From Bacteroidota bacterium (GTDB lineage: Bacteria > Bacteroidota > Bacteroidia > Chitinophagales > Chitinophagaceae): 64,000 bases of DNA. The translations under genes were made by a program, and so were the position numbers. This document shows positions 21-9,231 of this stretch, piece after piece. Positions within the stretch are counted from its first letter, which is position 1. The number at the start of each line of letters is the position of its first letter. The notes beneath the pieces are model-generated. The model saw only the letters and a program-made list of their open reading frames with translations, did not search any database and was not told where the DNA came from. The stretch lies in NCBI GenBank assembly GCA_018268055.1, contig JAFDXF010000089.1, forward strand, positions 62,001 to 126,000, read 5' to 3'.

Positions 21-2021
21 ATGAAATCCTCAATTAACAAACCCTTTTTACTAACGCTTTTATCGGTATTCAGCCTTGTATTGATACAAAGTTGTAAACC
101 AAAAGGCACGAGCTCAGCTGCTGAAGGTGATGCATCAAAAACTTATGTTGCCCCCGGCAAGTATGATGAATTTTACAACTTCGTATCCGGAGGTTTTAGC
201 GGACAAATGTCTGTTTATGGTATTCCCTCAGGCCGTTTATTCAGAGTAATTCCCGTTTTCTCAGTTGACCCTGAGAAAGGTTGGGGATATAGTGAAGAAA
301 CTAAACCAATGTTGAACACATCACATGGTTTTGTACCTTGGGATGACCTTCATCACATTGCACTTTCCAGAACAAACGGAAATCATGATGGTCGTTGGGC
401 ATTTGGTAATGCGAACAACACGCCAAGGATTGCACGTATTGATTTGAAAACATTTAAAACAGCTGAAATTCTTGAAATACCCAACAGCGGCGGTAACCAC
501 TCCTCGCCTTTCATTACAGAAAACTCTGAGTATGTAGTTGCCGGTACTCGTTTCAGTATCCCAATGGATAATGTAAATGGCGATGTTCCTATCAATACTT
601 ACAAACAAAATTTCCGTGGTACAGTAAGTTTCATCAGTATCAATAAAGATAATGGCGGAATGAACCTTGCCTTTCAGATTCAAACTCCGGGTGTAAACTA
701 TGACCTAGCTCGTGCAGGTAAAGGTGTATCTCACGATTGGATGTTCTTCAGTTGCTATAACACTGAAAGAGCTAATACACTATTGGAAGTAAATGCTTCA
801 AAGTTTGATAAAGATTTCATTATGTGTGTTAATTGGAAAAAAGCAGAAGAATATGCTGCTGCAGGCAAAGGTGAAAAAAGATCTGTAAAGTATGCTCATA
901 ATACTTATGATGAAGCAACACACTCTGCTACTTCTAAAATGGAAAACGAAGTAATCGTATTAGACCCTAAGAATTGTCCTGATATGGTTTACTACATGCC
1001 TTGCCCTAAATCACCACATGGTTGCGATACAGATCCTACAGGTGAATATATCGTTGGTAGTGGTAAATTGGCAGCAGTGATTCCTGTATTCTCTTTCACA
1101 AAGATTCAAAAAGCAATTGCAGACAAAAATTTTGATGGCGACTATGAAGGTATTCCTGTATTGAAATATGAAGCAGTATTACATGGCGAAGTTCAAAAGC
1201 CGGGCTTAGGACCTTTGCACACAGAGTTTGATGATAAAGGAAACGCTTATACTTCATTCTTCGTTTCTTCTGAAATCGTAAAATGGAGTGTGAAAGACTT
1301 GAAAGTATTGGATAGAGTTCCTACTTACTATTCAGTAGGCCACTTGAGTGTACCGGGCGGCCCAACTAACAAGCCTTGGGGTAAATATGTAATTGCTTAT
1401 AATAAAATTACAAAAGACCGTTATCTACCAACAGGCCCTGAATTGACTCAAAGTGCACAGTTGTATTCCATTGATGGCGATAAAATGAAATTGCTTTTAG
1501 ATTTCCCAACTATTGGAGAACCTCACTACGCTGAAGCAATTCCTGCAAATCTTATTATGAAAAACTCTACTAAGATTTATAAGATTGAGGAAAACAAACA
1601 CCCTTATGCTGCACTGGGTGAGCCTAAGACAAAAGTAGAAAGAAAAGGCAACGAAGTGCACGTTTACATGACTGCTATTCGCTCTCACCTGACTCCTGAT
1701 AATATTGAAGGTGTAAAAGTTGGAGATGTTGTTTACTTCCACGTAACCAACTTAGAGCAAGATTGGGATGTGCCACATGGTTTTGCAGTAAAAGGAGCAA
1801 ATAATGGAGAGTTATTAATTATGCCTGGCGAAACACAAACCTTAATGTGGAAGCCTGAACGTACCGGAATATTTCCATTCTATTGTACTGACTTCTGCTC
1901 CGCATTACACCAGGAAATGCAAGGATATATCAGAATAAGCCCTGCCGGTTCTAATGTACCGCTGACTTTCAGCACAGGAACTAACCTTCCTGCAGATGAG
2001 AAAAAACCTGAAACTAAATAA
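21..2021 (+). CDS. nosZ: Nitrous-oxide reductase, clade II, predicted lipoprotein
   Basis: Reduces N2O to N2 outside the inner membrane, the last step of denitrification. The 666-residue protein has the seven-bladed propeller with the CuZ site (His111-His112 in DDLHHIAL are the first ligand pair) and a C-terminal cupredoxin domain with the CuA motif C622-x3-C626-x3-H630-x2-M633, plus an upstream CuA histidine in VPHGF. The N terminus is a hydrophobic Sec-type signal without a twin-arginine motif, which marks clade II. It ends in LIQSC, so Cys25 is a probable lipidation site and the enzyme may be membrane-anchored (inference). It is the first gene of the nos cluster; only 20 bases of upstream sequence are present, so promoter and any upstream partner are not visible. 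Identification is firm. Confidence 0.97.
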   Translation: MKSSINKPFLLTLLSVFSLVLIQSCKPKGTSSAAEGDASKTYVAPGKYDEFYNFVSGGFSGQMSVYGIPSGRLFRVIPVFSVDPEKGWGYSEETKPMLNTSHGFVPWDDLHHIALSRTNGNHDGRWAFGNANNTPRIARIDLKTFKTAEILEIPNSGGNHSSPFITENSEYVVAGTRFSIPMDNVNGDVPINTYKQNFRGTVSFISINKDNGGMNLAFQIQTPGVNYDLARAGKGVSHDWMFFSCYNTERANTLLEVNASKFDKDFIMCVNWKKAEEYAAAGKGEKRSVKYAHNTYDEATHSATSKMENEVIVLDPKNCPDMVYYMPCPKSPHGCDTDPTGEYIVGSGKLAAVIPVFSFTKIQKAIADKNFDGDYEGIPVLKYEAVLHGEVQKPGLGPLHTEFDDKGNAYTSFFVSSEIVKWSVKDLKVLDRVPTYYSVGHLSVPGGPTNKPWGKYVIAYNKITKDRYLPTGPELTQSAQLYSIDGDKMKLLLDFPTIGEPHYAEAIPANLIMKNSTKIYKIEENKHPYAALGEPKTKVERKGNEVHVYMTAIRSHLTPDNIEGVKVGDVVYFHVTNLEQDWDVPHGFAVKGANNGELLIMPGETQTLMWKPERTGIFPFYCTDFCSALHQEMQGYIRISPAGSNVPLTFSTGTNLPADEKKPETK

Positions 2022-2774: not shown

Positions 2775-3812
2775 ATGAAACATCAACTAACAGTAGCATC
2801 CAGAATATTGGTAGCCTTTGCCTCAGGAGCATTAATCGCTGTATTTTTTCTTCCTGCATGGCGGATAGACTTATTTGCACCTCAATATCCCGAAGGTCTT
2901 ACAATGAATATTTGGATTAATGGTTTATCCGGTCAGGTAGATGTTATCAACGGATTAAATCACTATATCGGAATGAGACCTATCACCGTAAGCATGTTCC
3001 CTGAGTTTAAATTTTTGCCTTACGTAGTAGGTTTCTTTATGTTACTCGGCATGATTGTAGCCGTTACCGGTAACAGAAAATTTCTTTTTGCATACTTGGT
3101 ACTTACCGGTATTGGTGGCCTTATGGCAATGATTGACTTTTTTCTTTGGGGCAAAAAATATGGAAGCAATCTGAATCCGGATGCACCCATACAAGTACCA
3201 GGGCTAACCTATCAACCTCCACTTTTGGGACATAAACGTATTTTGAATTTCGATGCATATTCTTTTCCTGACGTAGGCGGTTGGGTAGTAATCGCAGCCG
3301 GCGCACTTGCATTCACTGTGTGGTTTGTAGAATGGTATAAAAATCGTAAGAGAAAGAATTCTTCTAATAAAAATACACTTGCAGCCGCATCAGTTATCCT
3401 TTTCACTTTCTTACTTTCATCTTGCAGTGCAAAGCCTGAACCATTTGTTGCAGGTAAAGACAATTGTCATTTTTGCAAAATGGGCCTTACCGATACTCGC
3501 TTCGGAGCTGAAATCTTAACTAAAAAAGGTAAAGTATTTAAGTTTGATGACCTTCATTGTTTAATCGCTTTTAATAAAGCAGGCAGTGAAAAAGAAGATA
3601 ATATTTCACGCACTTTAGCAATAGACTTTAATAAGCCAAATACATTTGTAGATGTAAAAGAGGCATTCTTTGTTACAAGCCCTGAATTAAAAAGTCCAAT
3701 GGGCAGCAATACTGCCGCTTACAGTACAAAAGCAGAAGCAGAAGCAGCAGTAAAAAATCAAGATGCAGAACAATCTAACTGGAATCAGTTAATCGGAAAA
3801 CTTAGCGAATAA
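2775..3812 (+). CDS. nosL: Membrane protein fused to a NosL copper-chaperone domain
   Basis: A 345-residue fusion. Residues 1-190 form a membrane protein with about four hydrophobic segments (near 10-28, 81-98, 103-124, 168-185) and an exported loop. After a basic linker (190-200, RKRK) comes a new hydrophobic segment ending in the lipobox-like LLSSC (Cys217), then a NosL domain with the copper motif C231HFC234KM236 and FDDLHCLI. NosL delivers copper for NosZ maturation and is usually a separate lipoprotein of about 150-190 residues. Here it looks like a NosL lipoprotein precursor joined to the end of a membrane protein. The reading frame is intact. It is 39 bases before nosD. Confidence 0.9.
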   Translation: MKHQLTVASRILVAFASGALIAVFFLPAWRIDLFAPQYPEGLTMNIWINGLSGQVDVINGLNHYIGMRPITVSMFPEFKFLPYVVGFFMLLGMIVAVTGNRKFLFAYLVLTGIGGLMAMIDFFLWGKKYGSNLNPDAPIQVPGLTYQPPLLGHKRILNFDAYSFPDVGGWVVIAAGALAFTVWFVEWYKNRKRKNSSNKNTLAAASVILFTFLLSSCSAKPEPFVAGKDNCHFCKMGLTDTRFGAEILTKKGKVFKFDDLHCLIAFNKAGSEKEDNISRTLAIDFNKPNTFVDVKEAFFVTSPELKSPMGSNTAAYSTKAEAEAAVKNQDAEQSNWNQLIGKLSE

Positions 3813-3851: not shown

Positions 3852-5084
3852 ATGAGGCTACTCCTCCTCATATTACTCTCAACCTTTTGGTTGCAGAGTT
3901 TGAGTCGCAATATTACAGTTGCACCAAACTCTTCTGTCAATACGCTGACTAAAGGATTGTCTATTGCTTCAAATGGAGATACAATAACAGTCAAATCCGG
4001 AACTTACAAAGATGGAAATACAGTTGTAACTAAATCTGTTACCATTATCGGTGAGGGCAATGTTATTTTTGATGGAGAAGACAAATACGAAATTCTGACA
4101 ATCAGCGCATCCGGTGTAGTAATTAAAAATATTACTTTCAATAGTGCAGGCTACTCTGCTTTAAAAGACTTTGCAGCAATTAAAATTATAGATGCCTCTA
4201 AAGTAATCATTGAAAGCAATCGCATCAACAATGCTTATTTTGCCATACACGTTTCCAATTCAAGTTCGGTTACCATTAGAAATAATACTTTATTCGGCAC
4301 ACCAAAATCAGAACAATTAACCGGCAATGGAATACATCTTTGGAAATGCAATAATGCTCTTATAGAAAACAATCGTTGCACCGGTTATAGAGATGGAATT
4401 TATTTTGAGTTTGTAGGGAACTCTGTAATCCGAAATAACTGGAGCGAAAAAAATTTACGTTATGGCCTTCATTTTATGTTCTCGAACGATGACAGCTATT
4501 TTGGCAACACGTTTAAAAACAATGGTGCCGGAGTGGCTGTTATGTATTCCAAAAGAGTAAAAATGGAAAACAACCATTTTCAAGAAAACTGGGGACCTTC
4601 TGCTTATGGTTTGCTTTTAAAAGATATAGCCGATAGTCATATCAATGGAAATACATTTTTGAAAAACACAGTAGGTATTCACATGGAAGGAAGTAGCCGG
4701 ATTGATATTCAAAAAAACATTTTTAAATCAAACGGATGGGCTGTTAAAATTCAAGCAAGTTGTGATGATAATAATTTTCATCAAAACAATTTTATCGGAA
4801 ATAGTTTTGATGTGGGAACCAATGGTACGATGGTACTGAACAAGTTTGATAATAATTATTGGGATAAATATGAAGGCTACGACTTGAATAAAGATGGCAT
4901 TGGTGATGTTCCGTATCATCCGGTAAGTTTATACTCAATGATTATTGAACAGAACCCAAGTACTTTAATGCTATTCAGGAGCTTTACAGTTCAACTGTTG
5001 GATAAAGCAGAAAAAATGATTCCTGGAGCAACACCTGAAAACCTGATTGATAACAAACCTTTAATGAAATCATTAAAATTATGA
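3852..5084 (+). CDS. nosD: NosD, periplasmic copper-site assembly protein
   Basis: A 410-residue protein with a signal peptide (hydrophobic residues 2-17) and a right-handed parallel beta-helix of the carbohydrate-binding/sugar-hydrolase (CASH) type. Repeating turns rich in N-N-x and I-x-x-N are visible throughout residues 60-330. NosD works with the NosFY ABC transporter in building the CuZ sulfide-bridged cluster of NosZ. It overlaps the start of nosF by 4 bases, which indicates translational coupling. Confidence 0.95.
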   Translation: MRLLLLILLSTFWLQSLSRNITVAPNSSVNTLTKGLSIASNGDTITVKSGTYKDGNTVVTKSVTIIGEGNVIFDGEDKYEILTISASGVVIKNITFNSAGYSALKDFAAIKIIDASKVIIESNRINNAYFAIHVSNSSSVTIRNNTLFGTPKSEQLTGNGIHLWKCNNALIENNRCTGYRDGIYFEFVGNSVIRNNWSEKNLRYGLHFMFSNDDSYFGNTFKNNGAGVAVMYSKRVKMENNHFQENWGPSAYGLLLKDIADSHINGNTFLKNTVGIHMEGSSRIDIQKNIFKSNGWAVKIQASCDDNNFHQNNFIGNSFDVGTNGTMVLNKFDNNYWDKYEGYDLNKDGIGDVPYHPVSLYSMIIEQNPSTLMLFRSFTVQLLDKAEKMIPGATPENLIDNKPLMKSLKL

Positions 5085-5848
5085 TTCAGATTGAAAGAAT
5101 CAGTAAGCGATTTAAGAAACTACAAGTGTTAGACAACATCAATGTTCTTTTCGAAAAAGGACAAGTAGTATCATTGATTGGGCCAAATGGCTCCGGAAAA
5201 ACTACATTGATCAAATCTATACTTGGCTTGGTGAAGCCGGATAGCGGAACAATCTTGGTCAATAATATATTGGCAGGAAAAAGTCCGGACTATAGAAGCC
5301 AGATTGGGTATATGCCTCAAATAGGCAGATATCCCGACAATATGAAAGTTGGGCACCTATTCAGTATGTTGGAAAATTTAAGAGCAGAAAAAAAACATTC
5401 ACTTGATAAAGACCTTATCCAAAGTTTTAAATTGGAAGATATTTATCAAAAACCAATGCGAACATTAAGTGGTGGCACAAGACAAAAAGTAAGCGCCGCA
5501 GTTGCCTTCATGTTTAGCCCCGATATATTAATTCTGGATGAGCCAACTGCAGGCTTAGATCCTTTATCATCTGAAATATTAAAAGAAAAAATTCGCAAAG
5601 AAAAAACCAAAGAGAAACTCATCCTTATTACTTCACATATTCTTAGCGACTTGGACGAGTTGACCACACACGTTACATATTTACAAGAAGGCAAACTTTT
5701 ATTTATGAAAGATATTGCCACACTGCAAGAAGATACCGGCGAAATAAAATTAGGCAAAGCTATTGCCCGAGTGATGAGAGGTGAGCACACAGATGGTAGC
5801 TGGATAGATAAAATATTTAACACTTCATCAAATGAAGAAAAAAGATAA
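5081..5848 (+). CDS. nosF: NosF, ABC transporter ATPase for NosZ maturation
   Basis: A 255-residue cytoplasmic ATP-binding subunit. Walker A is GPNGSGKTT (34-42), the ABC signature LSGGTRQKV lies near residue 128, and Walker B with D-loop is LILDEPTAGLD near residue 150. It pairs with NosY and NosD to supply a sulfur species for the CuZ site. It overlaps nosD by 4 bases and lies 5 bases before nosY. Confidence 0.96.
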   Translation: MIQIERISKRFKKLQVLDNINVLFEKGQVVSLIGPNGSGKTTLIKSILGLVKPDSGTILVNNILAGKSPDYRSQIGYMPQIGRYPDNMKVGHLFSMLENLRAEKKHSLDKDLIQSFKLEDIYQKPMRTLSGGTRQKVSAAVAFMFSPDILILDEPTAGLDPLSSEILKEKIRKEKTKEKLILITSHILSDLDELTTHVTYLQEGKLLFMKDIATLQEDTGEIKLGKAIARVMRGEHTDGSWIDKIFNTSSNEEKR

Positions 5849-5853
5849 TTGCC

Positions 5854-6621
5854 ATGCTTAAATTATCCCGATACGTATTATATGATATTGTAAGAAGTAA
5901 AATTATTATTGCTTACACACTCTTTTTATTCCTCGTTTCTTTCAGCCTATTTCAATTAGAAGAGAATGAAAGTAAAGCGATACTTAGTTTACTCAATATT
6001 ATCCTGATTGTGTTACCGTTGGTAAGTATTGTTTTCTCTACCATTCATTATTACAATTCGTATGAGTTTATTGAGCTAATGCTTTCACAGCCTTTGAGTC
6101 GAAAAAGAATATTGCTCAGTGAATTTTTTGGTGTGGCCATGTCTTTAAGCGGAGCGTTTTTTGTAGGAGTGGGTATTCCTGTTCTTATTTTTTCCTTCAA
6201 TAGCGTTGGCCTTTCATTACTTTTTACCGGAGTGATGCTGACCATCATCTTTGCATCATTAGCTTTTTTAGCTTCAGTACTTTCCAGAGATAAGGCAAAA
6301 GGTATTGGCGTTACATTATTACTTTGGTTCTATTTCACATTAATCTATGATGGATTAGTATTGATGATTCTATTTAGCTTTAGCGATTATCCACTTGAGA
6401 AAATAATCCCTGTATTGTCTGCATTAAACCCGGTTGACTTGGGCAGAATATTTATCATGTTAAAAATGGATGTTAGTGCATTAATGGGTGTTACCAGTGC
6501 AATGTATCAGGACTTTTTTGGCAGTTTTATAGGTGTACTTTTTACCGTTGGAGTAATGGCTCTATGGGCGATTATTCCATTGAGGTTTGCCCTACTGGTT
6601 TTCAATAAAAAAGACATCTAA
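5854..6621 (+). CDS. nosY: NosY, ABC transporter permease for NosZ maturation
   Basis: A 255-residue protein with six hydrophobic spans, of the ABC-2 permease type. Segments such as LSQPLSRKRILLSEF, the usual cytosolic coupling region of NosY, are present near residue 75. Position right after nosF supports the call. It is the last gene of the nos cluster; 121 bases containing a separate promoter follow. Confidence 0.93.
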   Translation: MLKLSRYVLYDIVRSKIIIAYTLFLFLVSFSLFQLEENESKAILSLLNIILIVLPLVSIVFSTIHYYNSYEFIELMLSQPLSRKRILLSEFFGVAMSLSGAFFVGVGIPVLIFSFNSVGLSLLFTGVMLTIIFASLAFLASVLSRDKAKGIGVTLLLWFYFTLIYDGLVLMILFSFSDYPLEKIIPVLSALNPVDLGRIFIMLKMDVSALMGVTSAMYQDFFGSFIGVLFTVGVMALWAIIPLRFALLVFNKKDI

Positions 6622-6742: not shown

Positions 6743-7474
6743 ATGAGAGAATTAGACAAACTTACATTAGCAGAAATTGTGATCAACGATCAACGTACTG
6801 CTGCATTATTCGATAAACATCGGTTAGATTTCAGCTGTAATGGCAAGCGCACTTTAGAACAAGCCTGCACAGAAAGTAATATCGATACGGCAATACTTAT
6901 CGGCGAATTAAAAAACTTAGATAATTTTTCAACAGTACCTGAAAATAATTATTCCAAACTTTCATTAACCGAATTAATTCAGCATATCGTAAGTAAGCAC
7001 CATACATTTATAAAACTTGAAATTCCGATACTGTCAGCATATCTGAAAAAAATTACTGATGCGCATAAAGACAAACATCCTGAACTTTTAAAAATCACCT
7101 CATTATTTAATGCATTCAAAGAAGAAATGCTCATGCACTTACAAAAAGAAGAGTTGATCTTATTTCCTCGTATAAAAGAAATTGAAAAAAATTGCAAAGA
7201 CCGCACAGCAAAAACAAAACATAGTCTTACTTACTTACTTGCACCCATTGATATTATGAAGCAAGAACACGATCATGCTGATAAATTATTGATAGAAATA
7301 AGAAAGATAGCAAACAACTACGAATGGCCTGCAGATGCGTGTACCACTTATAAGTTAGCCTTTGCAGCATTCGACACTTTTGAAAAAGACTTGCATCAAC
7401 ACGTTCACTTGGAAAATAATATCCTTTTTCCGAAAGCCATAGCATTATTTAAAAATTGTTTGGAAAAGATTTAA
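6743..7474 (+). CDS. ric: Ric/ScdA/YtfE-type di-iron protein, repair of iron-sulfur clusters
   Basis: A 243-residue cytoplasmic protein. An N-terminal DUF542 domain (about residues 1-60, with LDFSCNGKRTLEQAC) precedes a hemerythrin-like four-helix bundle whose iron ligands lie in SKHHTF, HLQKEE, KQEHDH and HQHVHLE. Ric proteins repair iron-sulfur clusters damaged by nitric oxide or oxidants. It is 9 bases before norC and shares the FNR-like promoter, so Ric and NO reductase form a nitrosative-stress operon. The first cysteine pair of the usual DUF542 motif is Ser-Cys here rather than Cys-Cys. Confidence 0.93.
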   Translation: MRELDKLTLAEIVINDQRTAALFDKHRLDFSCNGKRTLEQACTESNIDTAILIGELKNLDNFSTVPENNYSKLSLTELIQHIVSKHHTFIKLEIPILSAYLKKITDAHKDKHPELLKITSLFNAFKEEMLMHLQKEELILFPRIKEIEKNCKDRTAKTKHSLTYLLAPIDIMKQEHDHADKLLIEIRKIANNYEWPADACTTYKLAFAAFDTFEKDLHQHVHLENNILFPKAIALFKNCLEKI

Positions 7475-7483
7475 TTAAATAAT

Positions 7484-7870
7484 ATGGCAAAAGTACTTGT
7501 GTTTATCACGTTGATTATTTGTTTTATTCTTTATAGTATTGTTATTTATACAACCGGAACAATTGATCATAGCAAAGTAAGTACTACAGAATATGTATCA
7601 ATTCAAAAAGGCAAAATGCTTTTTCAAAAAAACAATTGTACTGCTTGCCATCAGATATATGGCCTCGGTGGCTACTTAGGCCCTGAATTGACTACTGCAT
7701 TTAGTGATTCGCTGAGAGGCGAGCAATACATGAGAGCTTTCCTAAAATCAGGCGGTGCACGAATGCCCAACTTCCATTTTACATCTGAAGAAATAGATAA
7801 TATAATTGCTTATCTAAAATACATTGACGGAACAGCTACTACCTATAAAAATGATATAAAGCAACCATAA
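7484..7870 (+). CDS. norC: NorC-like monoheme cytochrome c
   Basis: A 128-residue protein with one N-terminal membrane helix (residues 3-23) and a periplasmic cytochrome c domain: C52TAC55H56 binds heme and Met94 in GARMPNF is the likely sixth ligand. It is expected to pass electrons to the adjoining NorB-like subunit. Its stop codon overlaps the norB start by one base (TAATG), so the two are translationally coupled. Confidence 0.9.
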   Translation: MAKVLVFITLIICFILYSIVIYTTGTIDHSKVSTTEYVSIQKGKMLFQKNNCTACHQIYGLGGYLGPELTTAFSDSLRGEQYMRAFLKSGGARMPNFHFTSEEIDNIIAYLKYIDGTATTYKNDIKQP

Positions 7871-9231
7871 TGCCTGAAAATAAAGTTTCATACAATACCG
7901 ATAAAACAGCAAAAGCATTTTTACTCTTGGCAATTTCCTATCTGCTCTTTGCACTTTTGATGGGTGTAACTGGTGGTTTTCAATATATACTTCCGGATTT
8001 TTTAAAAGACAAATTATCCTTTCAGCAAACAAGGCCACTACATGTTTACCTGGCAATTAGCTGGATTTTCACTGCTGCTCAAGGAAGCATTTATTATTAT
8101 TTACCTCGCATAGCGAACAGGCCTATTGCATGGAAGAACGGAGTTCAAGTTCATTTATTATTACAAATAACTATTTCAATTACGATTATCATCTGTTTCT
8201 TTTTAGGATACTTTGGCGGTAGAGAATATTTGGAGTTTCCGCCATTTTTGGGGTTATTCATATTCGCATCATGGATTCCATTTACAATAAACTTTTTTCG
8301 CACACTAAAACCAAATTATAAAACGGCGCCTGTTTATATCTGGAACTGGACAACCGGAATCATTTTCTTTTTCATCACATTATCAGAATCTTATTTATGG
8401 CTTATTGATTACTTTGGAGGAAACATTATTCGCGACGTTACAGTGCAATGGAAAGCACTCGGTTCAATGGTAGGAAGCTGGAACATGTTGGTATATGGCA
8501 TTTCGTTTTATGTAATGGAAAAAGTAAGTGGTAATACAAAAATTGCCAAATCGCCGATTGCTTTCTTCTTCTACTTTTTAGGTTTTACAAACCTGATGTT
8601 CAATTGGGGACATCACACCTACATCGTACCGGCTGCTCCATGGGTAAAAATGGTAGCTTATATAGTAACGATGACAGAACTTTTAATTCTGGGAAATATA
8701 ATTTGGCAATGGCGTAAAACACTGAACGCTGCACTAAAAAATTATTCAAATATTCCTTATCGATTTATGATGTATGCCGAAGTTTGGATTTTTCTGAATC
8801 TTACACTTGCACTTATCATGTCGGTTCCTGCCTGGAACTATTACACACACGGCACGCATATTACCGTAGCGCATGCAATGGGTACAACGATTGGTATCAA
8901 TACCATGTTACTCTTTGCATCTATTTTCTTTATCATACAAGAAGAGCTTGCATCTGCTTTTGGGAAAATAAAAAAATGGATTACTGCCGGTGGTCGTATT
9001 ACCAATACGGCGCTCATAGTATTTTGGGCTTCGCTATTAGGTAGTGGCATTGCCAAAATATCTGCTAAAATGGAACATAACAGCTTTACAGAAATAATGA
9101 AAAAATGTGCACCATGGTTTCAAGCGTTCACCTATAGCGGCATTATCGTTTATATAGGTATTTTAATTCTTTCTATCGCAGGCGTCAAAACACTAAGAGC
9201 AAATTCAATTAAAAGAACAAATAACAGTTAA
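7870..9231 (+). CDS. norB: NorB-like heme-copper oxidoreductase, divergent active site
   Basis: A 453-residue protein with 12 predicted membrane helices, of the size and layout of cNOR NorB (NO to N2O). Conserved: His58 in RPLHVYL (low-spin heme), His248-His249 in WGHHTY (FeB), Glu270 in MTELLIL and His335 in TVAHAMG (high-spin heme). By hand alignment through the G-x-W and K-V-S-G positions of helix VI, the third FeB histidine is Leu197, the adjoining Glu is Val201, and the second low-spin heme histidine is Met337. So it is NorB-like in sequence and context (after norC and ric) but lacks ligands canonical enzymes need. It may be a variant NO reductase or have another role. No frameshift is seen. 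Confidence 0.8.
   Translation: MPENKVSYNTDKTAKAFLLLAISYLLFALLMGVTGGFQYILPDFLKDKLSFQQTRPLHVYLAISWIFTAAQGSIYYYLPRIANRPIAWKNGVQVHLLLQITISITIIICFFLGYFGGREYLEFPPFLGLFIFASWIPFTINFFRTLKPNYKTAPVYIWNWTTGIIFFFITLSESYLWLIDYFGGNIIRDVTVQWKALGSMVGSWNMLVYGISFYVMEKVSGNTKIAKSPIAFFFYFLGFTNLMFNWGHHTYIVPAAPWVKMVAYIVTMTELLILGNIIWQWRKTLNAALKNYSNIPYRFMMYAEVWIFLNLTLALIMSVPAWNYYTHGTHITVAHAMGTTIGINTMLLFASIFFIIQEELASAFGKIKKWITAGGRITNTALIVFWASLLGSGIAKISAKMEHNSFTEIMKKCAPWFQAFTYSGIIVYIGILILSIAGVKTLRANSIKRTNNS

Follow-up and report, generated by a model that had tools for sequence, protein, structure and literature searches.

The window analyzed here, a 64,000-nucleotide stretch of contig JAFDXF010000089.1 from a Bacteroidota bacterium (assembly GCA_018268055.1), begins with a nos gene cluster, which is followed on the same strand by ric, norC and a NorB-like gene (Table 1). 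The NorB-like gene is one unbroken open reading frame whose start overlaps the stop of norC (TAATG), and the first-pass annotation was correct in describing it as intact and as a neighbor of ric and norC. The predicted protein matched COX1 in Pfam (E 4e-33), no curated NCBIfam model for NO reductases (NORs) or oxidases scored above its own cut-off, and a PDB sequence search yielded two cNOR NorB chains as the sole relatives (E 1e-9 to 1e-7). The NosL-domain gene of the upstream nos cluster encodes a 345-aa protein with an N-terminal membrane region fused to the NosL domain, and this fusion was conserved in 13 loci.

Table 1. Genes of the nos-ric-norC region and ligand-related residues of the NorB-like protein, with positions in the window.
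Feature	Position	Strand	Remarks
Clade II nosZ (Sec-dependent N2O reductase), start of nos cluster	21..2021	+	TIGR04246, 936.9 bits
NosL-domain membrane protein	2775-3812	+	nos cluster
nosD	3852-5084	+	nos cluster
ABC ATPase nosF	5081-5848	+	nos cluster
ABC permease nosY	5854-6621	+	nos cluster
ric/ScdA/YtfE iron-sulfur repair di-iron protein	6743..7474	+	TIGR03652, 217.7 bits, above cut-off
NorC-like membrane-anchored cytochrome c	7484..7870	+	Pfam cytochrome c matches; GGYLGPELT motif
NorB-like heme-copper subunit without canonical FeB and low-spin heme ligands	7870..9231	+	453 aa
His58, retained low-spin heme ligand	8041..8043	+	Invariant in family and cNOR
Gly198, column of first FeB/CuB histidine (cNOR H207)	8461..8463	+	hhalign versus cNOR and CcoN
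Asn205, replacing cNOR Glu215	8482..8484	+	Asn 51/51; Glu 12/12 in cNOR
His248-His249, two retained non-heme-metal histidines	8611..8616	+	Invariant, 51/51
Glu270, equivalent of cNOR Glu280	8677..8679	+	Invariant
His335, retained heme b3 proximal ligand	8872..8874	+	Invariant
Met337, replacing second low-spin heme histidine (cNOR H349)	8878..8880	+	Met 51/51; His 12/12 in cNOR

The AlphaFold model of the NorB-like protein (pLDDT 85, pTM 0.88) contained 12 long helices and corresponded to a full subunit I of the heme-copper superfamily. Fold comparison gave Z scores of 39.0 to cbb3 CcoN and of 38.9 (4xyd_A) and 37.2 to cNOR, indicating that the 12-helix fold is intact. In phylogenetic trees, the protein and its homologs formed a single deep clade (support 100/99), and both the cNOR+qNOR clade (100/100) and a monophyletic cNOR (96/90) excluded this family. 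When A- and B-type outgroups were included, the family joined cNOR+qNOR and not CcoN (SH-aLRT 98). An AU test did not quite reject the family as sister to cNOR alone (p 0.056), and the branches are long, so the exact placement of this deep lineage on the NOR side is unsure. Descent from a Bacteroidota cNOR was considered and found unsupported, cNOR being monophyletic without the family. The protein also branches outside qNOR, and at 453 aa it does not have the N-terminal cytochrome-like domain of that class (~750 aa). The same survey revealed, in Cloacibacterium, Amniculibacterium and Flavipsychrobacter (L136, L138, L148), a CcoN-like protein of ~575-640 aa that is not fused to FixO as is usual; it carries a YYMHMAIGMWF-type motif in helix VI and forms its own branch beside CcoN. 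CcoN-related proteins of 456-484 aa with full ligands (L112 and L113; G325 and G090) branched just outside CcoN.

Ligand positions were compared in a joint alignment of 51 family sequences covering the sites (a few of them duplicates from one genome) and 12 cNORs, and in a reference alignment of 37 family sequences. The heme-copper signature consists of six histidines, two for the low-spin heme, one for the high-spin heme and three for CuB/FeB (PMC3413370). Four of the six are kept in the NorB-like protein, the first FeB histidine being Gly198 and the second low-spin heme histidine Met337. His58, His248, His249, Glu270 and His335 had been listed as kept in the first-pass annotation, and they were invariant in all 37 sequences of the reference alignment and in all family sequences that reach these positions; Asn205 and Met337 were likewise confirmed as replacements, with hhalign in agreement on the latter. 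The earlier assignment of Leu197 to the first FeB histidine was right in that no histidine is found there, but the position had to be corrected: hhalign against cNOR and hhalign against CcoN both placed the FeB/CuB histidine on Gly198, and this column was Gly in 51/51 family sequences versus His in 12/12 cNORs. Residue 197 varies across the family (L/M/N/Y/S/A) and is therefore not a family-wide ligand. The proposal of Val201 in place of the nearby Glu was abandoned, since it depends on an ungapped helix VI, and the cNOR profile alignment sets a one-residue gap opposite Glu211, which is the FeB ligand in 3o0r (PMC10256718). The register of helix VI could be shifted by one residue, Leu197 and Val201 arising only from the ungapped alignment; the predicted helix 186-220 is continuous in the AlphaFold model. 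No histidine occurs between residues 96 and 247 and the residues are non-ligand in both registers, so the third histidine is absent either way. Compared with the three His and one Glu of FeB in cNOR, the helix VI His and Glu are both missing. From these residues we infer His/Met ligation of the low-spin heme and metal binding by two histidines, with Glu270 as a possible substitute metal ligand.

The genome scan identified 38 loci of the family, and further members were found among relatives. The family is mostly from Bacteroidota, with eight carriers in a sample of 395 genomes of this phylum, and isolate carriers include Cloacibacterium normanense, Amniculibacterium aquaticum, Flavisolibacter ginsengisoli and Sulfidibacter corallicola; in the phylum of the last species, two of 247 sampled genomes carried the gene. 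His248, His249 and Glu270 were invariant down to 41% identity. Because the altered ligands are common to about 50 genomes, they reflect neither sequencing error nor chance. A pseudogene or decaying gene was ruled out by the invariant motifs and by dN/dS values of 0.01-0.04 among five Cloacibacterium species, which indicate strong purifying selection. One NorB-like gene (L032:8001-9323) was split in two reading frames, by either an assembly error or a recent frameshift. Among the matches listed in a plasmid search, only ordinary NORs were seen (up to 23% identity), and a search of freely readable literature, the Murali 2024 NOR-family paper not among it, turned up no account of such a set of ligands.

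A norC gene was adjacent or near in all loci extending upstream of the NorB-like gene, and the NorC partners retained the heme c motif CxxCH of cNOR together with Met94-Pro95 in 37/37, indicating that an electron donor is maintained. In three loci (L011, L016 and L030), norC is separated from the NorB-like gene by genes judged by eye to be tryptophanase-like. In 11 loci (L007, L019, L022, L024, L027, L029, L031-L034 and L037), a gene near norC encodes a multi-TM protein with LLHGHSHFAFGGW; this protein had no Pfam match and is possibly another heme- or metal-binding membrane protein of the NO response.

When made without NorQDEF, cNOR is a stable, fully hemylated NorCB that lacks FeB and is inactive; D220 and E222 of NorB are the proposed docking site for NorD, and qNOR requires no NorQ (PMC9976466). 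NorQ (PF08406) was missing from this genome and from ten other distinct carriers, none of these 11 holding a true cNOR, whereas it was found in 11 of 11 genomes tested with a true cNOR, including two that carry the variant as well. The positions of D220 and E222 were acidic in 9/51 and 0/51 family sequences, respectively, versus 11/12 and 11/12 cNORs. The NorQ/NorD maturation of cNOR is thus not a trait of carriers without a true cNOR; NorQ is not universal in cNOR either, as none is adjacent at a Thermus cNOR locus. The missing NorQ and the lost NorD-docking residues agree as two distinct strands of evidence.

Clade II nosZ was detected in 32 of 33 carrier genome records (E<=0.001), a few of which are the same genome twice, and 29 scored over the curated cut-off. 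Within the Bacteroidota sample, nosZ was present in 128/395 genomes versus 8/8 carriers, a co-occurrence with a probability of about 1 in 10,000 by chance if shared ancestry is ignored. NirK scored over the cut-off in only six of 30 carriers. The neighbors of the family loci included nos genes, Crp/Fnr (15 loci), ric (nine of 38 loci) and Rrf2 regulators (four). In seven carriers, CtaD and CcoNO were the only other heme-copper proteins found.

All seven Cloacibacterium species examined carried CcoNO, and no canonical cNOR or qNOR was detected among them. The variant was present in five, as their sole NorB-like gene, and missing in two, which matches the norB-bearing and norB-lacking branches published for the genus (PMC11879220). 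Cloacibacterium cnorB is suppressed at high oxygen (PMC11879220), and strain CB-01, annotated with "cNor" (PMC11168931; also PMC9239227), displayed "minor NO reductase activity" (PMC11168931). As the variant is the sole NorB-like gene in the genus, the "cNor" of CB-01 is very probably the variant. Cloacibacterium is promoted as a farmland N2O sink and seems to carry only this variant, which would explain the weak NOR activity reported and would change the scoring of terminators and of sinks for N2O.

The best reading of these data is a NorC-fed diheme protein that would act on NO, either at a reduced His-His(-Glu) metal site or at heme b3 alone. Electrons would pass from a periplasmic cytochrome to the NorC heme c and from there, through a heme b of high potential with His/Met ligation, to heme b3, where NO or a related small substrate would be handled together with a non-heme metal held by His248/His249 and maybe Glu270. 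Such a 2-His(-1-carboxylate) site would be loaded without the NorQ/NorD chaperone. In bacteria with clade II nosZ, the likely role of the protein would be to clear NO alongside the reduction of N2O, with a turnover below that of cNOR. His248, His249 and Glu270 probably still coordinate a metal, because a site out of use would be expected to drift. Taken as a whole, a NorCB-type complex of a deep lineage that handles NO beside N2O reduction may be the best explanation, and we hold it tentatively. The kinetics of CB-01, which suggest little NOR activity, count against it, as does the presence of other NOR candidates (eNOR-like, sNOR-like, qNOR or cNOR) in several carriers. The proposal in the first-pass annotation of an unusual NOR with a His/Met heme and a two-His site therefore stands in part: it fits the ligand loss, the NorC partner and the loss of NorQ and NorD docking, while the ligation itself is read from sequence. 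More doubtful, though conceivable, is the fuller claim of a third deep NorCB-type lineage, namely an FeB-depleted His/Met diheme enzyme with its own NO chemistry in N2O-respirers that is misannotated as cNOR, both in surveys of genomes and in work on N2O mitigation.

The inactivity of FeB-less cNOR (PMC9976466) implies that loss of the site may mean no NO reduction. In that case the protein could be a diheme cytochrome free of FeB, whose heme b3 would bind NO for sensing, buffering or slow scavenging, while 2NO would not be converted to N2O. The FeB His, the Glu, NorQ and the NorD-docking patch have all been lost, FeB-less NorCB is a stable protein (PMC9976466), and the minor NOR activity was measured in a Cloacibacterium whose sole NorB-like gene is probably the variant (PMC11168931). 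However, the invariance of His248, His249 and Glu270 down to such low identity would be unexpected without a metal, the electron input through NorC, kept in every partner, argues for a redox role, and no signaling domain is fused or consistently adjacent; we consider this somewhat unlikely. A cytochrome bc unit derived from NorCB, donating electrons to clade II NosZ or accepting them from it without reducing NO, would account for the tight co-occurrence with nosZ, seen even when the genes are non-adjacent, and for the many carriers without nirK, and a His/Met heme and NorC would suit electron transfer. This role is improbable, because most nosZ carriers are without the gene: it occurs in only eight of the ~128 sampled nosZ-bearing Bacteroidota and is missing from two Cloacibacterium species, so N2O respiration is independent of the variant. 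Conservation of the heme b3 site and of the His-His pair also speaks against it.

Other new chemistry, such as NO disproportionation of the dismutase type or NO oxidation, has a precedent in the NO dismutases, where the fold is kept but the catalytic Glu and one metal His are changed (PMC3413370). Those enzymes descend from qNOR and no longer receive electrons from outside (PMC3413370). The family, in contrast, keeps NorC and branches outside cNOR+qNOR, which makes this alternative very improbable. Hardly credible is an ordinary cNOR with ligands mis-aligned by hand: the one-residue ambiguity of helix VI would allow for it, but neither register supplies a ligand, the stretch from 96 to 247 is free of histidine, and the family is a separate clade with motifs invariant in 51 sequences. 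Hand-alignment error was ruled out by these sequences and the two profile-profile alignments, neither of which placed a histidine at the first FeB position.

Surveys annotate the variant as cnorB and predict N2O production from the gene. In N2O-respiring Bacteroidota, the gene usually labelled NO reductase is often a distinct and strongly conserved relative that is missing key metal-binding residues, and given the loss of these ligands, NO reduction by the family should not be assumed from annotation. The three-His metal site and the low-spin heme with two His ligands count as the signature of heme-copper oxidoreductases; a conserved natural family that departs from both puts the purpose of the non-heme metal to the test.

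With cNOR (NorCB; P. aeruginosa 3o0r and Roseobacter denitrificans 4xyd), the family shares the NorC-NorB pair, the 12-helix fold, the heme b3 His, one low-spin His, the His-His pair, Glu280 and the GRE(Y/F)LE and THGT motifs. It differs in the change of the first FeB His to Gly, the deletion of Glu211, the changes of Glu215 to Asn and of the low-spin His to Met, the missing NorQ, the loss of the NorD-docking carboxylates and its separate clade outside cNOR+qNOR. CcoN of cbb3 has a similar fold (Z 39.0) and the same VQW motif in helix VI, but it has all six histidines and sits on a different branch. Like the present family, NO dismutase (Nod, DAMO_2434/2437 type) derives from NOR and has its metal His and its catalytic Glu altered, but it resembles qNOR, the His being Asn and the Glu being Gln, and has no electron-donor site (PMC3413370); judged by description, the family differs in having Gly for His, a changed low-spin ligand, an unfused subunit and a retained NorC. 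The eNOR, sNOR, gNOR, nNOR and bNOR enzymes are heme-copper NORs with altered active sites as well and are described as B-family relatives (PMC11388526), whereas the present family groups with cNOR/qNOR; gNOR, nNOR and bNOR were set apart by their descriptions. The earlier suggestion that the protein belongs to a described family with altered ligands thus found no support, given its position on the cNOR/qNOR side of the tree and with gNOR, nNOR and NOD judged by description.

The genome of the window also contains nirK and eNOR-like and sNOR-like NOR candidates. The sNOR-like heme-copper protein (L042; G000:C31) has a GHTIAN motif, and its presence gives the organism at least two other NOR candidates. 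The eNOR-like protein (L041; G000:C73), like that of L145, has HSSQQ, with Gln at the Tyr position, and its low-spin heme His is seemingly Lys (GHFKG), which would make it the second protein of this genome with a changed low-spin ligand.
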